A DNA stretch of 43,863 nt from a virus, in the IMG/VR virus record IMGVR_UViG_3300032242_002820, positions 1 to 43,863 of that record. One strand, written 5' to 3'. Below, in pieces: positions 2,119 through 37,055 of the stretch (positions are counted from its first letter, which is position 1; the number at the start of each line of letters is the position of its first letter). A program made the translations under genes and the position numbers. A model generated the notes under the pieces. The model saw nothing but the letters and a program-made list of their open reading frames with translations, had not been told where the DNA came from and ran no database searches.

Positions 2119-2359
2119 ATTGTGCAGGAGGATCGTCTGCAGGACGTCTAGGAGCAAACTTCTCTGCTCCAGTGATTCCTAATCCTGCCATAACAATATA
2201 AGCGACCGCATTGAATACAAAGTCGCTAGGTTGATACTTCCAAAATAGATTAGCAATGAATCCTACGCCAAGAAGTATAGAAAAGAATACAGTGACACAT
2301 CGTTTAGATGATGGCATTCCATCAACGTCTTTTAACATGCCTTTGATAAATTCTATCAT
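2117..2359 (-). CDS. Small two-helix membrane protein, holin-like candidate
   Basis: The 80-residue product has a charged N-terminus (MIEFIKGMLKDVDG), a first hydrophobic segment at about residues 20-41 (VFFSILLGVGFIANLFW), a short polar turn, a second at about 46-65 (FVFNAVAYIVMAGLGITG) and a charged Pro-rich tail (APRRPADDPP). Two helices and both ends on one side would fit a class II-type holin; small proteins like this are often annotated as putative holins in T4-type marine phages. Its ATG overlaps the TGA of the upstream tape-measure/peptidase gene (ATGA at 2356-2359), so translation is probably coupled. The pairing of a wall peptidase domain with a holin-like gene supports the idea, but T4 holin gpT is different and no lysis role is shown by sequence alone. 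Confidence 0.6.
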   Translation of the reverse strand: MIEFIKGMLKDVDGMPSSKRCVTVFFSILLGVGFIANLFWKYQPSDFVFNAVAYIVMAGLGITGAEKFAPRRPADDPPAQ

Positions 2360-4737
2360 ACTGCTGGCGCACCAACTCCCATAGGAGGGTCACCTACATT
2401 GAAGTATGCGGCAATATGATCTTCTTGTGAATGAGGTGCACTAGGAGATGGAACTCCGTATTGTTGCCCCTGTTTGCCGCCGCCAGCAGATTTAGATGAT
2501 GATCCTGTAGATGCCATCATTTGGCTAGGTGCTGGAGCACCACCCGTTCTAGGAGGAGCAGGTGCTGGCGATGCTCCACTAGATGGTGCTGGCGATGCTC
2601 CACTAGAGGGTGCAGCAGATGCTCGAGCAGGTGCTGGCGATGCTCCACTAGAGGGTGCAGCAGATGCTCGAGCAGGTGCTGGCGATGCTCCACTAGAGGG
2701 TGCAGCAGATGCCATCGTTTTAGTTCCCTTTTTACTAGCTATTAAACTTGCAAGGTAAGGTGAGTCTTTAGATAGTGATGATGAGTGATAATCGCTTCCC
2801 CAACCAGTTAATGATTTATGGCTAGTATCTAAGTGAATATGCGCTCCACCTGGAGCACTGTACTCTGCTCCTAATCCTGTAAACCCCAAACCAATAGCAG
2901 TAGAGAATATTTTATTTCTTTCACTTTCATTTAATTGGTTAGAATTTAAACCAAGATCAATTGCATCTCCCGTACCATGATTAGCAACACCGGGTCTATA
3001 CCCGCTAGTTATAATAAGACTTTTACCAACTGCTTTTTCTAACTGTGCTTTTTTACTCAATACATCAGGCTTAACTCCGGTAGCGTTACCTCCTGCATCC
3101 TTTGCACCCTTTGCACCCTTTGCACCAGTCGAACTGGCGGCATCTGATCCTTCTGGTGCTGCTGGAGTTGTAAATGTTCCTGATGCACCCGCACCTGCAA
3201 ATTTTCCGCCGGATCCTACAGCACCTTTAGATGTTGCCGCTACACCACCAGCAGCAGTTTTAGCAGCAGTTTTAGCAGCAGGTGCTCCTGCGGCAGTTGG
3301 TGTAGGTTTAGATACAGGTGTTGCTGCAGCAGGAGCAGCTTTATCCTCTCCGCCGAATCCAAAAAAGCTTTTGATTGACTTGCCAATCTTTGACGCAGTT
3401 TCTTTGACCTTTTTTACCAAATCATCGCTAATTTCTTTTAAAACAGCAGATACAGATTTGCCATCAAAAACAATTTCTGCTATCTTTAAACCTAAATATT
3501 CTCCCGCCATGGCACCGCCAAAGGCTCCTATTACACCACCTATAATAGTTCCGAATCCTGGAAATATTGCTGTGCCTATAGCGGCACCTAATATAAAGCC
3601 TCCTTCGCCACCCAAGAATGATCCTAGTGATTTTGCAAAGGCCTTTTTAACTTCTGTCCATGATCCTTCACCTGATGCAGCCTTAATGGTTGCAATGACT
3701 GGGTCTATAAACATGAGGAGTTTTGCAAGCAATGGGATCTTTGAAAGAACATTTCTAAATGGTACTAAATATCCCAATGCTTTTGCCGCTTTGCCTGAAA
3801 GTTTCGCAACCCCTTTGGCTAATTGACCAAGTTTTCCTACCTTACCTACTTGTTCTCCTGCAGCGATTGCTATACCTTCTCCTGCCGCGGCCGCCTTTCC
3901 TGCTTTGCCTGCAGCTTTGCCTAATTTGCCAGCTTCTTCTACTGCTGCACCTGCTTTTTTACCAAAGCCCAATTTTTGTGCAATCGCTTCGCCAAAGCCT
4001 TTAACTTTTGAAATAACACCCTCAACGATTGACTTTAATCCATTGAGTGTTTTGCCCAGCCCCTCTTGCAACAATTTACCAATTTTTCCTAGTTTTCCCA
4101 CTACGGTGTTGATACCTGCACCTATCCATGTCCAAGCACCTCGTATTTTTGAAAGCAATGCTAATGCAAGAGGAATCAACATCAACGCAAAAGTATCAAG
4201 GAATGATTTCATTTTAGGTGATACTTTGGTAACATCCTTTTTATCAGGTGCTTTAGTTTCTAATCCTGATTCTGCTTCTCTTAACTTTTGATCTTCAATA
4301 CTTTTCTTTAATGTACTTTCAATACTTCCAAGATACTTTAAAACATTGGTGACTTTAAGATCAATAATTCCAACTGCTTTGTGAATAACAGATACAGTAG
4401 ATTCTTTTGCAGATATTTTTTCTAAATTATCAAGACGTTTAATAATAAAAGTAAAGACACTGCCCTTTAAGGCAGAATCTGTTTCTTTTTTTGTAACATT
4501 TATCTTTTTGCCATCGACTTCTTTTTTGGCAAATATTCCACTTGCTTTGATGCCTTCCTGGCCAAGAATAGCGCGCTCCAGGGGATTGTATCCTTTCTTT
4601 TTAGTTGACGCAGCGCTTTTCTTTGTTGTTTCGGCTAATCCACTTAAAGGAGATTCAGAACTGGCTGCTGCAGGTTTAATAGCGGCAGCCATCTTATCTT
4701 TAGCAACAGATTTTAATGCATCAGTTATTATTGCCAT
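2356..4737 (-). CDS. Tape-measure protein candidate with C-terminal M15 peptidase domain
   Basis: This 793-residue protein is the longest of the minus-strand tail operon and lies just downstream of gp26 and a small overlapping frame, the place of a tape-measure gene. Residues about 60-180 look helical and coiled-coil-like. Residues about 180-450 contain long Gly/Ala-rich hydrophobic stretches (LDTFALMLIPLALALLS; GGFILGAAIGTAIFPGFG), typical of tape measures. An Ala/Pro/Thr-rich linker follows. Near residues 565-640 is a VanY/M15-type peptidase: TSGYRPGVANHGTGDAIDLG and AHIHLD give the H-x6-D and H-x-H zinc ligands. The tail has a tandem Ser/Ala/Pro repeat. T4 gp29, the T4 tape measure, is 590 aa and lacks such a domain. 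A soluble endolysin is less likely given the hydrophobic core and gene position. The start has no good ribosome-binding site and overlaps the upstream frame by 17 bases, suggesting coupling. Confidence 0.75.
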   Translation of the reverse strand: MAIITDALKSVAKDKMAAAIKPAAASSESPLSGLAETTKKSAASTKKKGYNPLERAILGQEGIKASGIFAKKEVDGKKINVTKKETDSALKGSVFTFIIKRLDNLEKISAKESTVSVIHKAVGIIDLKVTNVLKYLGSIESTLKKSIEDQKLREAESGLETKAPDKKDVTKVSPKMKSFLDTFALMLIPLALALLSKIRGAWTWIGAGINTVVGKLGKIGKLLQEGLGKTLNGLKSIVEGVISKVKGFGEAIAQKLGFGKKAGAAVEEAGKLGKAAGKAGKAAAAGEGIAIAAGEQVGKVGKLGQLAKGVAKLSGKAAKALGYLVPFRNVLSKIPLLAKLLMFIDPVIATIKAASGEGSWTEVKKAFAKSLGSFLGGEGGFILGAAIGTAIFPGFGTIIGGVIGAFGGAMAGEYLGLKIAEIVFDGKSVSAVLKEISDDLVKKVKETASKIGKSIKSFFGFGGEDKAAPAAATPVSKPTPTAAGAPAAKTAAKTAAGGVAATSKGAVGSGGKFAGAGASGTFTTPAAPEGSDAASSTGAKGAKGAKDAGGNATGVKPDVLSKKAQLEKAVGKSLIITSGYRPGVANHGTGDAIDLGLNSNQLNESERNKIFSTAIGLGFTGLGAEYSAPGGAHIHLDTSHKSLTGWGSDYHSSSLSKDSPYLASLIASKKGTKTMASAAPSSGASPAPARASAAPSSGASPAPARASAAPSSGASPAPSSGASPAPAPPRTGGAPAPSQMMASTGSSSKSAGGGKQGQQYGVPSPSAPHSQEDHIAAYFNVGDPPMGVGAPAV
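2561..2713. repeat. 45-bp tandem repeat in the tape-measure/peptidase gene
   Basis: Units begin at 2561 (a shortened 24-bp copy), 2585, 2630 and 2675 with near-perfect identity. On the coding (minus) strand each full unit encodes a 15-residue Ala/Ser/Pro block of the type ASAAPSSGASPAPAR. The repeats form a flexible linker after the M15 domain. The near identity at DNA level suggests recent expansion by slippage or unequal recombination. Confidence 0.9.
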
Positions 4738-4846
4738 GTTGGTTCTGTGTCTCTACGTAATCTTTTACCATGCCTACATATATATCTCTTTCAAATGGAA
4801 TCAAATTTTCTAGATCTTCTATAGAATAATAATAATGATGTGCCAT
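4721..4846 (-). CDS. Small frame after gp26 (41 aa alone), likely expressed as a -1 frameshift extension of gp26
   Basis: A minus-strand frame runs from ATG at 4846 to TGA at 4721, giving 41 residues that begin MAHHYYYSIEDLENLIPFER. It is too short for usual ORF cut-offs, but it fills the gap between gp26 and the tape-measure gene and overlaps the latter by 17 bases. The ATG has no Shine-Dalgarno: the upstream bases are CCACCATATTTTCA. The same frame is open backwards through the end of gp26 and past a T7 run at 4906-4900; a -1 slip there would add 59 residues (YIGLIHTDLN..., then the 41 aa) to residue 237 of gp26, giving about 296 aa. In lambda-type phages the gene pair before the tape measure makes such G/GT chaperones. 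In T4 the hub-assembly gene 51 follows 26; homology of this small frame to gp51 is not established. Confidence 0.7.
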   Translation of the reverse strand: MAHHYYYSIEDLENLIPFERDIYVGMVKDYVETQNQHGNNN

Positions 4847-4887
4847 TGAAAATATGGTGGCGTAGTAATTATTTAAATCTGTGTGAA

Positions 4888-5610
4888 TTAGCCCAATGTA
4901 AAAAAATCGTCTAGTGTTGTCAGTTCGATACTTCGAGCTGTCCCCTTTGAGTTAGTATACTCAATTTTATGATATAGTTTAGGCATCGTGTCAAAGTACT
5001 TCTGTATTTCTTCAAAAGCCTTAACACTTAGCGAATCAATAAACTCATCAAGTTCTGCTTTAGAAGATTCCTTCGCAACATATACTTGATCAGCATCATA
5101 AATCTTATCGATGCACTCTCTAATCAAAATCGAAGTCATTTCTGCTGTAGACATTTCGTCGTCTTCAAGCTTTGTGATAATCGATGCTGTTGGATATCGC
5201 ATGATAATACCCACTTCATCATTCACCTTAATCTTATTAGTGTGAACTTCATCTTTTTTAATTTCAATTTCATCTAATTTGATTTTAAACTCGTATGTCT
5301 TTTCATCTTCATGATCGATATACTTTAGAGTGACAACGTTATCTACTGACTTTGCTCGAATCTTGACAAACAAGTATTCTAGATCAAACGTAGTTAAATC
5401 GTCGGCATCAAAGTCACTTCCATCATTCAACGAAACACAATTATTAATGATCTGCTTTAACGCATTGACCATTTCTTTTCTTGTGCCGCCTGCTTGTGCA
5501 ATAAGAAGAATCTTTTCTTCCTTGACAAGAAACGGTCTAAACTTTGCATCCTTTTGAGTCGATGGTATAGTCACATCAAATAAAGGCACTGTAATCTTCG
5601 GTAAAGCCAT
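4888..5610 (-). CDS. 26: gp26-like baseplate hub / tail assembly protein
   Basis: The 240-residue product begins MALPKITVPLFDVTIPST and contains KFRPFLVKEEKILLIAQ, a signature I recall from gp26-type proteins of T4-like phages (Pfam 'T4 bacteriophage base plate protein'). The rest is acidic and Lys-rich, with a helical C-terminal part (VKAFEEIQKYFDTMPKLYH) and an end DDFFTLG. T4 gp26 (208 aa) is needed for hub assembly. The start is supported by AGGAG 7 bases upstream. It is the second gene after gp54 in the late minus operon, 12 bases downstream of it. The last codons lie on a run of seven T, read GAT TTT TTT ACA, a candidate ribosomal slippery site (see the regulatory entry at 4900-4906). 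An assembly-chaperone role like lambda gpG is inferred from that context. Confidence 0.85.
   Translation of the reverse strand: MALPKITVPLFDVTIPSTQKDAKFRPFLVKEEKILLIAQAGGTRKEMVNALKQIINNCVSLNDGSDFDADDLTTFDLEYLFVKIRAKSVDNVVTLKYIDHEDEKTYEFKIKLDEIEIKKDEVHTNKIKVNDEVGIIMRYPTASIITKLEDDEMSTAEMTSILIRECIDKIYDADQVYVAKESSKAELDEFIDSLSVKAFEEIQKYFDTMPKLYHKIEYTNSKGTARSIELTTLDDFFTLG
4900..4906 (-). promoter_or_regulatory. Candidate programmed -1 frameshift site (T TTT TTT)
   Basis: On the coding strand gp26 ends GAC GAT TTT TTT ACA TTG GGC TAA. The heptamer T-TTT-TTT lets both tRNAs re-pair after slipping one base back. The -1 frame is open from just after a stop at 4954-4952 to TGA at 4721-4723, so the slip site lies within the short overlap of the two frames. 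Downstream, a CCAU/AUGG mini-stem can form around the internal ATG, but no strong pseudoknot is obvious. Efficiency cannot be judged from sequence. A missing T in the assembly would give the same appearance. Confidence 0.65.
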
Positions 5611-5622
5611 AATAATCTCCTA

Positions 5623-6504
5623 TTAAATAAACGGAATAATTCCAGATCCTCCTACGCCTCCGCCAACTACTCCGGGTCCGTTTGACATGGTACTGCCAAT
5701 AAGGCTGCGAGCATTCACAACATTAAGAACATCAGCAACTGTCTGCGGCATTTGAATTGCAGAGACTGCTTGTGATAATGATTTCAATCCTAGCAAGTTC
5801 TGCAATGAAGAAATCTTGCTGTTGAGTGCATCTTTTGCGCCGTTGACTGTTGAGTTCAATGTTGTGATTGAAAAATCAGTGAATGAGAATGTGACTTCTG
5901 CTTTAAGCAAACTATCAGTTGCGTCCCATGCAAGACTAACACCGCCCACTGTTCTAGCATAGCAATCTCTAAAAGTATAGATTAAGATCTTTTGATCTGT
6001 TTCATTGTAGACATATACTTCGAGATCAAACTTGTAATCATCTTTATATGCGACTTCGTATGGCGTCGCTGCAGTTGATGCTCCATATATGCTAGCGTGA
6101 CTGCCGTCATTAATATCATTGTACTTCATAAATGAGGTGACACCATTCAGATAATCTGTCACCTTCGAAAGAATATTGTTTTGAGAATTTTCAACCATAA
6201 AGTTCATTGTCAAATCTGTAAAGATCGGTCGATGCGGAACCTTTTCCATCGGACCATAGCCATATCTGCGAATGACTTGTGAGTCTAAATCAATTGCAGG
6301 GATACTGACATTATTTGTAAAGAATAATAAATTGTTAGGGAAGGCCTTTGCTTGTGAAAAGTTCACAAGGTATAATGTGGGCCTCAAATATCCATTTTTT
6401 AAAGCGTTGGATTTAAACTCACTAACGCTAAATCCCTCTGTGGGTTTATTGTTAGGTGCCTTAAGTAGCCCTAGAACATTTGATACGGTATCTAAAAACG
6501 ACAT
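5623..6504 (-). CDS. 54: gp54-like baseplate-tail tube initiator
   Basis: The 293-residue protein resembles T4 gp54 (320 aa), which caps the hub with gp48 and nucleates the tail tube. Visible features are FTNNVSIPAIDLDSQVIRRYG (trimmed), followed by the MEKVPHRP and FTDLTMNFMVE strands, and the block FRDCYARTVGGVSLAWDATD followed by a β-strand TFSFTDFSI, a pattern shared by tube-like proteins of T4-type phages. The C-terminal 80 residues are Ser/Val/Gly-rich and end in a glycine tail. An AGGAAAG ribosome-binding sequence precedes the ATG. It lies directly downstream of the 197-aa gene with one base between. gp48, its functional partner, is on the opposite strand at 7568, so the two tube-cap proteins are split between the two divergent operons. 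The gp54 versus gp19-like distinction rests on length and position. Confidence 0.85.
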   Translation of the reverse strand: MSFLDTVSNVLGLLKAPNNKPTEGFSVSEFKSNALKNGYLRPTLYLVNFSQAKAFPNNLLFFTNNVSIPAIDLDSQVIRRYGYGPMEKVPHRPIFTDLTMNFMVENSQNNILSKVTDYLNGVTSFMKYNDINDGSHASIYGASTAATPYEVAYKDDYKFDLEVYVYNETDQKILIYTFRDCYARTVGGVSLAWDATDSLLKAEVTFSFTDFSITTLNSTVNGAKDALNSKISSLQNLLGLKSLSQAVSAIQMPQTVADVLNVVNARSLIGSTMSNGPGVVGGGVGGSGIIPFI

Positions 6505-7099: not shown

Positions 7100-7519
7100 T
7101 TATTTTCCGTATAACTCTTTTTCGGTTATGATTTGAAATGTCCACTTGCGATCTGCACAATACTCTCTAGCCGCTTTCCACTTTGCTTGATTAATAAGAT
7201 ATGTGGCAGCTTCATTTAGAAATGTTCGGGTTCGCTTTTGTGGGACTTTAGGTTCCTGTGTTTGTTGATAGGGCTTGACTTCTATTAGAATGACTTCATT
7301 ATTCTTCTTTTTAACTATCATATCAGGAAAATACCGATGCATTCTATTATCCATAGGTGATATATAAGGTATAACAATCTCTTCACTTCCCCACCCGACA
7401 ACATCATCGTTTGAATCTAAAAACATCATAAGATGCAGTTCCCAGGAACTACGATAAATAATGTTGGTAGGATTCCCTATATATTTCTTTGGATTTTTTG
7501 GTTGAAACCTACCTTTCAT
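7100..7519 (-). CDS. 4: gp4-like head completion protein
   Basis: The 139-residue product matches T4 gp4 (gp50/4, about 150 aa), which acts in the last steps of head completion before tail joining. Recognisable blocks are ITYRSxWE (here NIIYRSSWELHLM), EEIVIPYISPMDNRMHRYFP, IEVKPYQQTQEP, FLNEAATYLINQAKWKAA and a C-terminal WTFQIITEKEL. The D...(9 residues)...ExK pattern around FPDMIV and LIEVKP is like that of the TnsA/type II endonuclease fold, and gp4 is thought to be related to nucleases. It is the first gene of the minus-strand late operon. Its ATG has no clear Shine-Dalgarno; the leader from the late promoter at 7558-7551 would be only about 26 bases long. Confidence 0.93.
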   Translation of the reverse strand: MKGRFQPKNPKKYIGNPTNIIYRSSWELHLMMFLDSNDDVVGWGSEEIVIPYISPMDNRMHRYFPDMIVKKKNNEVILIEVKPYQQTQEPKVPQKRTRTFLNEAATYLINQAKWKAAREYCADRKWTFQIITEKELYGK

Positions 7520-30400: not shown

Positions 30401-30898
30401 CAAGCATCTACCGTAACATTCACGGATGCTGTTGATACAGGCATCTATCAAGCAACAGGTAATACACTTAATACGTTCTACTCTGGTATTGCTCGTATTG
30501 CTGCATCATCATCTAATACGAACCCATATTATAAACTTTTTGCAACAGGCACTGCACCTGGTACAACAACCATTGATACAGGTGCAACTACAGGTACATT
30601 GCAAGCATACTTGTTACCCTATGGCTCAGGTGGCGTCTTTGTTGCTAACTCACTCACAGTCACAGTAACTGCAAACTCAACAGTCAATGTCAATCTAACT
30701 GCGAACTCATTATCATTAAGTACAGCGTTAGGTGCAACATCAGGTGGTACAGGTACAGGAACTTACTCTGCTGGTGACTTGCTTTATTCTTCTGCAACTA
30801 ACACATTGTCAAAATTAGGTATCGCTGCAAACGGCAACGTGTTGCAGGTTACAAACAATTTACCTGCTTGGGGTGGCGTGGACGGCGGCACGTTCTAG
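27422..30898 (+). CDS. Long repeat fibre protein, 1158 aa
   Basis: The N-terminus ANTIVQIRRSNTASSPGTVL followed by AAGELAYSYNSNNIYVG is the 'IxxRRS-x-PG-xL-x-xGELA-x-x' module typical of fibre and tropism-determinant proteins. Around residues 280-310 is NEVMRIDAGANVGIGNTNPN, a common peptide before peptidase-like or chaperone ends in tail fibres. Near residue 350 is GSYGSAGQVLASNGTSVYW, also found in two other fibres here. Residues about 400-960 are Thr/Asn/Val-rich β-repeats, for example TSTSNLTSLALT...VVN, repeated several times. The C-terminus LQVTNNLPAWGGVDGGTF is a likely tip motif. The gene is followed directly by a homing endonuclease with its own regulation. It is not homologous in sequence to T4 gp34-gp37. 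Confidence 0.85.
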   Translation: MANTIVQIRRSNTASSPGTVLAAGELAYSYNSNNIYVGAQTGVGTAGFVIGGAKFAYVNQTTGPGTQTANATVILDANSFVSNTFTTGLVVQGTSSTTIPVVVSSISNTANSSVLGANTSGGGSGLELATTAAMVQYIGGRTGAAVGANGNFLFNNSGITTGATNFNYDYTTGAMTVGNTSINVQMGYLSGNNQMMHWHGSANSYVQVMLQNANNGPNSSADYIVEVDNSTDTAYYVDLGLNSSTWSNAAWTVSGANDGYLYNANGAMSVGTASAKPVTFFANGTLAVNEVMRIDAGANVGIGNTNPNAKLAVTGSANISGLVTLGGNTIFNGNVQIGTAALAVGLSANGSYGSAGQVLASNGTSVYWASGASATPGGANTQIQFNSSGTLGGSAGFTFTTTSNNVAIANNLNVNTVSVTTNTQVGSNVTVNTTAFSITGNSTVSTATVTTGNIVYGNSSVTNAPIITLQNSTSTSNLTSLALTLGTVVVNTVGLAVGSNVTTNVSAFAIAGNSTVSTATITTGNIVYGNSSVTNAPIITLQNSTSTSNLTSLALTIGSTVVNAAGLTATLAVANLSGSYANISGQVNAATLYLQTSANVGSNVQLTTSTLTLVGNTTTQPTINVTTSGTTAGLIGGNSSITGAPVVLLQNSSSQANLTSATLAIGTSVVNSTAISVGTANVTTLNVGTAYITTGLAAPYVNVSGQVNTATLFVTTSANLASSNVYVNTAGIWVTNTTGIVNSAVFQVGTTFTANATLVNAAAINVVNQTNTATLYVTTTANVGSNVQLTTSTLTLVGNSTTVPTINLTTSSSTSGLLGGNSSITGAPAVLLQNSTSQANLTSATLTIGTSVVNSTAMAMGIANVTTLNVATAYVTTALQAAYANVTGQVNTATLFVTTSANIASSNVIANTAGVFVANSTGVVNAAVHSVGTAFIANSTAVTFTGANIVATSGYLSIRDILATGNLTVQGTLTTIDTTNLQVKDNLIQLADQQASTVTFTDAVDTGIYQATGNTLNTFYSGIARIAASSSNTNPYYKLFATGTAPGTTTIDTGATTGTLQAYLLPYGSGGVFVANSLTVTVTANSTVNVNLTANSLSLSTALGATSGGTGTGTYSAGDLLYSSATNTLSKLGIAANGNVLQVTNNLPAWGGVDGGTF
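28745..30040. repeat. Direct repeats within the 1158-aa fibre gene
   Basis: Two similar copies lie at about 28745-28880 and 28975-29105 (TTACAACCGGCAACATTGT / TCACAACCGGCAACATTGT starts). A second pair lies at about 29215-29470 and 29765-30015. In the latter, GGCGGCAATAGTTCAATCAC occurs in both copies and again at about 37716 in the 421-aa fibre gene. Protein units are nearly identical and DNA units differ mostly at third positions. Confidence 0.85.
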
Positions 30899-30911
30899 AC
30901 ACACGCTATTA

Positions 30912-30919
30912 TATAAATA
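30912..30919 (+). promoter_or_regulatory. Late promoter box of the homing endonuclease
   Basis: An exact TATAAATA; the extended sequence TATAAATACTCTA is very close to the T4 late consensus TATAAATACTATT. Initiation is expected near 30925, which is within the last bases of the 5' arm of the hairpin described at 30915-30950. The coding sequence starts at 30952. Confidence 0.85.
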
Positions 30920-30950
30920 CTCTAGTGATATCTTGTTTACTGGAGTATTT
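30915..30950 (+). promoter_or_regulatory. Hairpin that covers the ribosome-binding site of the homing endonuclease
   Basis: AAATACTCTAGT (30915-30926) pairs with ACTGGAGTATTT (30939-30950): eleven Watson-Crick pairs and one G-U around a 12-base loop. The 3' arm contains the Shine-Dalgarno GGAG (30942-30945), six bases before the ATG at 30952. RNA read through from the fibre gene would hide the site; RNA begun at the late promoter near 30925 lacks nearly the whole 5' arm and leaves it free. The stem followed by TTTTAT may also act as a weak terminator. Confidence 0.8.
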
Positions 30951-30951
30951 T

Positions 30952-31671
30952 ATGGAAAAGTATGGATTCATTTACGTTTGGTTTGACAAGCAATACAATA
31001 GATTTTATGTTGGAAGGCATTGGGGTCATATAAATGATGGGTATATCAGCAGTTCGAATAGTATGCGAGAAGCTCATCGCCGCAGGCCAAATGACTTCAA
31101 ACGTAGAATAGTTTCTCGTATAGATACCAAAGAAGCTTTAGTCATTGAAGAACAGCGTTGGCTTGATATGATAAAGCCAGAAGAATTGAATAAAAAATAT
31201 TATAATAAAACTCAAAAAGCTACTACTCCGTCTACTTTAGGATATAATCACTCCGATGAAACTATACAAAAAATAAAATTAAATAACATAGGCAAAATTA
31301 GATCAGAATCAACAAAAAATAATATTAGCAAAGCTTCTATAAAACAATTCTCTGATCCTGAACAAAGAAAAATTCTTAGTGATAATGTAAAAAATCAATG
31401 GCAAAATCCTGAGTATCGCCAACGTCAAATTGATGCACATAAGGGAAAGCCATCAGCAAGAAAAGGTGCAACTGTTTCTGAAGAAACAAAGCAAAAGCTC
31501 AGAGAAAAACGAAAACTGCAAGCACCTATGTCTGATGAAACTCGCCAAAAATTAAAAGAAAAACAACTAGGTACTATTTGTGTTAATAACGGGATTATAA
31601 ATAGATATGTTCCTGCTACTATATGTATGCCTGCAGGATTTGTAAAGGGTAAATTAAAAAGGTATAAATAA
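30952..31671 (+). CDS. Free-standing GIY-YIG homing endonuclease
   Basis: The chosen start (30952) gives 239 residues and uses the GGAG at 30942-30945; a longer in-frame start at 30868 would overlap the fibre gene and add residues that look unlike the family. The N-terminal GIY-YIG nuclease core reads GFIYVWFD (residues 5-12) and FYVGRHWG (18-25), with the Arg/Lys-rich segment NDFKRRIV (47-54) and the catalytic-type Glu in ALVIEEQRWLD (62-72). Two or three DNA-binding repeats of the NUMOD/IENR type follow: YNHSDETIQKIKLNNIGK, TVSEETKQKLREKRKLQ and MSDETRQKLKEKQLG. The lysine-rich composition and low GC differ from neighbours. It is not within an intron as far as can be seen. Such enzymes cut an allele lacking them and spread by repair. 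Confidence 0.9.
   Translation: MEKYGFIYVWFDKQYNRFYVGRHWGHINDGYISSSNSMREAHRRRPNDFKRRIVSRIDTKEALVIEEQRWLDMIKPEELNKKYYNKTQKATTPSTLGYNHSDETIQKIKLNNIGKIRSESTKNNISKASIKQFSDPEQRKILSDNVKNQWQNPEYRQRQIDAHKGKPSARKGATVSEETKQKLREKRKLQAPMSDETRQKLKEKQLGTICVNNGIINRYVPATICMPAGFVKGKLKRYK
31596..31603 (+). promoter_or_regulatory. Possible late promoter inside the endonuclease gene
   Basis: An exact TATAAATA lies 68 bases before the 66-aa gene at 31671, with predicted initiation near 31609. It could keep the downstream fibre genes expressed despite the inserted endonuclease. It lies in an AT-rich coding region, so chance is possible. Confidence 0.4.
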
Positions 31672-36171: not shown

Positions 36172-36399
36172 ATGCCTATATTTCCCGCTTACAAACACTG
36201 GATTGAATTAATACCGACTGAGGGTGTTATTGTCTTTAGATTATATACGATAGACACCAATACGAATATTCTGGTCACTGAGGACTATACTATACCAAAT
36301 CCTCCATATAATTTTGACGGCGATATACACAAATATATTGATACAAATTTTGACATGGTTGCTGCACAAGATAAAAATATTGTGAGATTGCAAAAATGA
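36172..36399 (+). CDS. Hypothetical protein, 75 aa, coupled to the sulfotransferase
   Basis: This small protein (PAYKHWIELIPTEGVIVFRL; TIPNPPYNFDGDIHKYIDTN) has no recognisable domain and no membrane segment. Its ATG lies 4 bases after the adhesin stop and its TGA overlaps the ATG of the sulfotransferase (ATGA at 36396-36399), so the two are probably translated together. It might assist the enzyme or be a small virion part. The AT-rich, Lys/Asp-rich composition resembles the sulfotransferase more than the fibre genes, hinting that both arrived together. Confidence 0.7.
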   Translation: MPIFPAYKHWIELIPTEGVIVFRLYTIDTNTNILVTEDYTIPNPPYNFDGDIHKYIDTNFDMVAAQDKNIVRLQK

Positions 36400-37055
36400 T
36401 TTATTCTGCTGAAAAATCAGTTGCTGTATTTTTAAATCCTAAAACTGGCACAAACAGTTTGATTGATTGTTTTCAAAATACTGCATTTACATTTGATATG
36501 TGTGCTCATAATCATATGACCCATGATCATTTTACAAAAAAATATAGTTCTGAGTTAACCAATACTAAGATGTTTTGTTTTTATAGAGATCCTGTAGAAA
36601 GAATGTTATCGATGTGGAATTATATAAGAACTACTCCTGGGCATTTAGTCAAGATGTTACATTATTTTTATGGCAATCAATTTAAAATCTCTCATTTAAA
36701 TCGAGATCCTTTTCAAACATTGTCTTTAGAAATACAAGACGCTTTAGCAAGAATTAAAATTATAGATTTCTTAGAAAGCAATTTTAAAGAAAAAGTATCT
36801 CCAAATTGGCCGTTATTATATCCTCAACGAAATTGGCTTGATTTTGATAATATGGAATTATTGTCTTATGATGATTTTGATGTGGGAGTTACATCGATTG
36901 CAGAACAATTGGGTATTAGTGATTACACATTAAATAAATTAAACACTAAAAAAATTATACCAAATGATCCTGTAATCACTCAGGAAGAGATTGATTATAT
37001 AAAATCATATTCAGAAGAAGACTATGATTTTTTTCAATCTAAGAATATTTTGTAA
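36396..37055 (+). CDS. Sulfotransferase-family enzyme, 219 aa
   Basis: The N-terminal VAVFLNPKTGTNSLIDCF (residues 9-26) fits the 5'-phosphosulfate-binding loop of PAPS-dependent carbohydrate sulfotransferases (PK-x-G-(T/S)-x-S). FCFYRDPVERMLSMWNYI (60-77) fits the 3'-phosphate-binding motif, R64 and S72 being the expected Arg-x7-Ser pair. The length is near the lower end for the family. Downstream residues (WPLLYPQRNWL, LLSYDDFDVGVTSIAEQLGI) fit the C-terminal Leu-rich part of such enzymes. The family transfers sulfate from PAPS to hydroxyls on sugars or proteins. It sits between an adhesin and a fibre gene, so likely targets are virion fibre residues or host surface glycans, but this is inference. 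Lower GC and Asn/Lys/Ile-rich coding compared with neighbours suggest acquisition. Confidence 0.85.
   Translation: MIYSAEKSVAVFLNPKTGTNSLIDCFQNTAFTFDMCAHNHMTHDHFTKKYSSELTNTKMFCFYRDPVERMLSMWNYIRTTPGHLVKMLHYFYGNQFKISHLNRDPFQTLSLEIQDALARIKIIDFLESNFKEKVSPNWPLLYPQRNWLDFDNMELLSYDDFDVGVTSIAEQLGISDYTLNKLNTKKIIPNDPVITQEEIDYIKSYSEEDYDFFQSKNIL

Follow-up and report, generated by a model that had tools for sequence, protein, structure and literature searches.

A programmed −1 frameshift on the heptamer T TTT TTT very probably lets a single gene of this phage, gp26, encode both a short tail assembly chaperone and a gp51-like long form. The reading draws on sequence comparison across the window (the whole stretch analysed, 43,863 nucleotides, IMG/VR record IMGVR_UViG_3300032242_002820) and its relatives. 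In the proposed mechanism, gp26 would be the short form (TAC-N). At T TTT TTT a minority of ribosomes would shift their pairing with the two adjacent Phe codons back by one base, escape termination at the end of gp26 and read 59 further codons; the resulting long form (TAC-NC) would correspond to T4 gp51. If lambda gpG/gpGT is a guide, many short and a few long copies would coat the tape-measure protein encoded next, with the extension recruiting tail-tube subunits.

Results

A slip site and an overlapping frame at the end of gp26

The features of the locus are as follows.

5623–6504, minus strand: tail-tube-like protein, upstream of gp26 (phrog_45 tail tube, E 2e-22)
4888–5610, minus strand: gp26, 240 aa, the probable short chaperone form TAC-N (PF12322 and phrog_150 matches)
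4900–4906, minus strand: slippery heptamer T TTT TTT, read in the gp26 frame as xxT TTT TTT
4721–4900, minus strand: −1 frame extension of 59 codons and a TGA, TAC-C, putative C-terminal domain of gp51 type (phrog_634 match, dN/dS, match to T4 gp51 207–245)
4721–5610, minus strand: predicted long form TAC-NC, gp26 residues 1–237 plus 59 (296 aa) by −1 frameshift
2356–4737, minus strand: putative tape-measure protein (position; partial phrog_794 tape measure match, E 4.6e-4)

The gene order is thus tube, chaperone, tape measure. The 3′ end of gp26 reads GAC GAT TTT TTT ACA TTG GGC TAA, and the seven T at 4906–4900 (minus strand) form a canonical X XXY YYZ site in gp26 phase. The −1 frame runs through the gp26 stop without interruption, from 61 nt ahead of it to 167 nt past it, and ends at TGA 4721–4723, where it overlaps the tape-measure start (ATG at 4737) by 17 nt; an open frame of at least 59 codons arises in only 0.6% of mononucleotide shuffles of the stretch. 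Its single ATG ahead of the conserved core lies at 4846 (codon 19 after the slip), and no Shine–Dalgarno-like sequence was found upstream of it. All coordinates that the first-pass annotation gave are correct, as is its product of about 296 aa, and its proposal of a lambda G/GT-type pair, in which gp26 alone is the short product and gp26 plus extension the long one, gains support from the conservation, dN/dS and T4 homology presented below. The predicted junction peptide is ...DDFFYIGLIHTDLNNYY.... The 43.9-kb record, which may be a fragment, holds one PF12322 gene only.

Several other genes in the window drew our attention. The tape-measure gene carries tandem repeats at 2561–2712 (45-bp unit, 2.8 identical copies) that encode Ser/Ala/Pro repeats, and its protein (2356–4737, minus strand) includes SGYRPGVANHGTGDAIDL...GAHIHLD, which resembles an M15-type peptidase motif by eye and has no Pfam match. 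A TnsA-like endonuclease-fold protein lies within the tail gene cluster (7100–7519, minus strand; PF08722, E 2.6e-22). Amid tail-fibre-like genes are a likely GIY-YIG/NUMOD3 homing endonuclease (30868–31671; NUMOD3, E 2.9e-8) and a weakly sulfotransferase-like protein (36396–37055; PF03567, E 0.009, below cut-off).

Conservation of the slip site and selection on the −1 frame

We compared 207 sequences (205 fetched loci or records, with the T4 region and the window in the set). All untruncated loci in the first set of relatives (80 from IMG/VR, gp26 identity 77 to 39%) have T TTT TT[T/C] close to the gp26 stop and a −1 frame that continues beyond it. Across the full comparison the extension lies in the −1 frame in 183 ORFs and the heptamer is in phase at 181 sites (122 TTTTTTC and 59 TTTTTTT), each preceded by a codon ending in T; the filters behind the two counts differ slightly, and identical or near-identical contigs are among those counted, with 161 distinct contexts. 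The alignment of gp26 loci that had been suggested as a check therefore returns a conserved heptamer with a conserved −1 frame at 181 of about 183 loci, the two lacking the heptamer being L119, a contig with an indel, and L085 (Cygsa01), which has no canonical heptamer. The remaining loci are truncated contigs, indel contigs (L114, L116 and L119), T4-type phages and Cygsa01; few loci came from scans that started from the gp26 of Stenotrophomonas and Cygsa01. Isolate genomes with the same junction are P-SSM2, HTVC008M, phiM12, Cr30 and phiW-14. Synonymous codon choice would yield the xxT TTT pattern with a probability of about 10^-20.7 (48 representatives below 60% identity, relatedness not fully removed). 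Near 3757, the near-identical Stenotrophomonas phage loci L115 and L116 have slip runs that differ by one T (TTTTTTCGG versus TTTTTCGG), which is either a sequencing error or a variant.

Outside its overlap with gp26, the extension has a pooled dN of 0.047 against a dS of 0.561 (43 non-overlapping pairs), with differences distributed 186/76/581 over the three codon positions, and reading it in the wrong frame reverses the ratio (dN 0.092, dS 0.052). Between the window and L002, its nearest relative, dN is 0.24 and dS 0.78 over 52 codons. These substitution patterns point to strong purifying selection on the −1 frame, the opposite of the neutral frame that the first-pass annotation had named as fatal to its own proposal, and the slip site and −1 frame are more than chance.

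Protein identity and the T4 genes 26 and 51

Profile searches identify gp26 as PF12322 T4_baseplate (E 8e-58, above cut-off) and phrog_150 (E 2.5e-65), and match the extension to phrog_634, ‘baseplate hub assembly catalyst’ (E 8.5e-19), a name that cyanophage ‘gp51’ also carries. The predicted gp26 model (pLDDT 87) has as its top PDB match the HK97 tail assembly chaperone, 2OB9 (VIA Z 8.1, 87 residues, rmsd 4.2), the next match scoring Z 3.5; the match spans the N-terminal part only (model residues 1–89). Foldseek also places 2OB9 first, weakly (E 0.65, probability 0.63), and a sequence-profile search of the PDB gave no match. The model assigns the short form a chaperone-like fold of the tail assembly chaperone type. 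Modelled alone, the extension forms three helices (pLDDT 78), for which Foldseek found no match in the PDB.

T4 gp51 (249 aa) matches phrog_150 over columns 13–280 of 282, plus phrog_634, while T4 gp26 matches the first part only. Profile comparison aligns the short form with T4 gp51 13–202 (probability 97.7, E 1.7e-12) and the extension with T4 gp51 207–245 (probability 91, E 1e-6). By homology, then, T4 gp26 corresponds to the short form and T4 gp51 is an in-frame fusion of gp26 and extension within one ORF, so that T4 would obtain its two forms from two divergent genes and the window phage from one gene with a slip site. The heptamer is absent from the T4 pair, T4 gp26 having GAG TTC TTT in its place. 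Our tree, rooted at the midpoint, places gp26 and gp51 of the Tevenvirinae as sister groups (96/84), compatible with a gene duplication having taken the place of frameshifting there; Aeromonas P19, from the Straboviridae outside Tevenvirinae, retains AGT TTT TTC and the −1 frame. The identification of the −1 frame as the gp51-position product holds in part: it is gp51-type, and it matches the C-terminal domain of T4 gp51 (residues 207–245), not the whole protein.

A stem-loop after the slip site in most close relatives

RNA folding energy dips 10–60 nt past the slip site (mean z −1.04, 47 representatives). Relatives of the seven-T type (L005–L056) have a 9-bp stem of consensus GCTGAGTCA / TGGCTCAGC, 7 nt after the heptamer and with a 38-nt loop (alignment A4, columns 15–23 with 62–70). 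Its positions pair in 89% of cells, against 20–36% when the arms are slid, with 17 double changes, a count in which relatedness was not removed and for which the stem was picked after the sequences were seen. Against synonymous recoding of 26 representatives, the mean z is −4.0 and stem pairs number 210 where 131.5 ± 6.3 are expected, so protein conservation does not explain the constraint. RNAalifold gave no consensus structure for the 43-row alignment; the probable reasons are the length of the loop and the presence of rows without the stem. Pair counts and synonymous recoding were used instead to test the named stem. These covariation statistics indicate that a stem-loop constrains the synonymous codons of the −1 frame in most close relatives.

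The window, L002 and L003 lack this stem (5 of 9 pairs), the window having an MFE z of +0.7 against synonymous recoding, and they lack any Shine–Dalgarno-like element; a search for such a stimulator upstream of the window site found none. The window site may thus depend on the heptamer alone and perhaps has a lower rate. Cyanophage-type loci (TTTTTTC; L057–L205, alignment A5) seem to bear different hairpins, shorter ones, downstream of the heptamer (GTATGGCTCA/TGAGTCATAC in the P-SSM2 type, GCCTC/GAGGC in others).

Loci outside the canonical set

In Ackermannviridae and Cygsa01 (L085, L209, L210, L212, L213, L215, L216, L217 and L220) the −1 extension occupies the same place with only [A/C/G]TT TT[T/C] near the gp26 stop, so not every member of the wider family carries the heptamer. 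In Cygsa01 and several Ackermannviridae the gp26 stop itself forms a TAATG stop–start overlap. Here the long form would be made either by a weak A-site slip or by separate translation. In the tree this clade adjoins phiW-14, which carries the heptamer.

Alternative readings

The extension might instead be a separate small gene (gp51), translated from a start codon of its own or by ribosomes that reinitiate once gp26 is finished. GenBank records of P-SSM2, HTVC008M, phiM12, Cygsa01, BUCT608 and others annotate just such a CDS after gp26, and the TAATG overlaps of Cygsa01 and several Ackermannviridae would suit it, but we consider this reading unlikely. The only ATG of the window frame lies inside the conserved region and lacks a Shine–Dalgarno sequence. 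Within the first 25 codons, 18 of 48 representatives have no ATG and 7 of 48 have none of ATG, GTG or TTG; most candidate starts lie downstream of the point, shortly past the slip site, at which conservation sets in. A separate gene would also make the conserved heptamer and its phase needless, and T4 gp51 is the full fusion.

Two further readings turn on the T run itself. Seven T form a homopolymer on which RNA polymerase could slip, producing mRNAs of altered U number and fusing the frames as ribosomal slippage would. Such slippage in E. coli usually needs runs of about nine or more; only six T (TTTTTTC) are present at 122 of the 181 sites, the phase of the heptamer relative to the codons is invariant, and many relatives have the stem-loop 7 nt downstream that is typical of ribosomal sites, all of which makes transcriptional slippage highly improbable. 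Still less credible is an assembly or sequencing error, in which one uninterrupted gene would have had its T run miscounted: homopolymers invite this, and a few relatives do differ in T run or by indels (L116, L114), but the same junction recurs at 181 loci from other contigs and from isolate genomes, which refutes it as a general explanation; the eight-T reads that the first-pass annotation had seen as a threat would revive it for this contig only. Programmed −1 frameshifting by the ribosome is the reading that we carry forward.

Discussion

Lambda gpG/gpGT offers a close parallel, being part of a G–T frameshift reportedly described as conserved by Xu, Hendrix and Duda in 2004. In both systems the slip site lies close to the 3′ end of a short ORF, the overlapping −1 extension has no conserved start of its own, and the tape-measure gene (identified in the window by position and a weak phrog_794 match) follows directly. 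They differ in the site itself, GGGAAAG in lambda and T TTT TTT in the window, and by sequence the proteins belong to different families.

A 2016 review describes G–T frameshifting as conserved among long-tailed phages except T4 (PMC5009743). The first-pass annotation held that such a frameshift was not described for gp26/gp51 of T4-type phages, a claim overtaken by Vladimirov, Gautam and Davidson (2022, Virology 566:9–15), who, by their title and the papers citing them, identified T4-like tail assembly chaperone genes. Citing papers credit them with poly-T slippery sequences in T4-like TAC-N genes (PMC12846349) and with finding that some T4-like phages have one gene for the short form and another for the fusion (PMC10274946); as so reported, their short and long genes, with poly-T sites in some phages and separate fused genes in others, match what we see. 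The window case is therefore not a first description and is a further example of a device already reported in outline for T4-like phages. For Vandenendeviridae and Andersonviridae, which are other phage families, a −1 frameshift has likewise been proposed where TAC-N ends in a T-rich stretch, there with a GTTTTT motif (PMC12846349).

Taken jointly, the loci raise a possibility that we regard as evenly balanced, namely that recoding signals around a conserved poly-T site turn over between lineages: T TTT TTT with a covarying 9-bp stem-loop in most close relatives, a bare heptamer whose stem was lost or never present in the window phage and its two nearest relatives, the [A/C/G]TT TT[T/C] −1 overlap in Ackermannviridae and Cygsa01, and gene duplication in the T4 lineage. 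The stem-loop, and its absence in the window phage, may be undescribed so far.

These observations indicate that gp26 and ‘gp51’ are one frameshifted gene in a large share of T4-type phages, among them cyanophages, Pelagibacter, Sinorhizobium and Caulobacter phages and environmental relatives. The small ‘gp51’ CDS in GenBank would then probably be misannotated, and the long product missed. The long-standing puzzle of gp26 and gp51 function in the T4 hub becomes testable as a problem of chaperone ratio.
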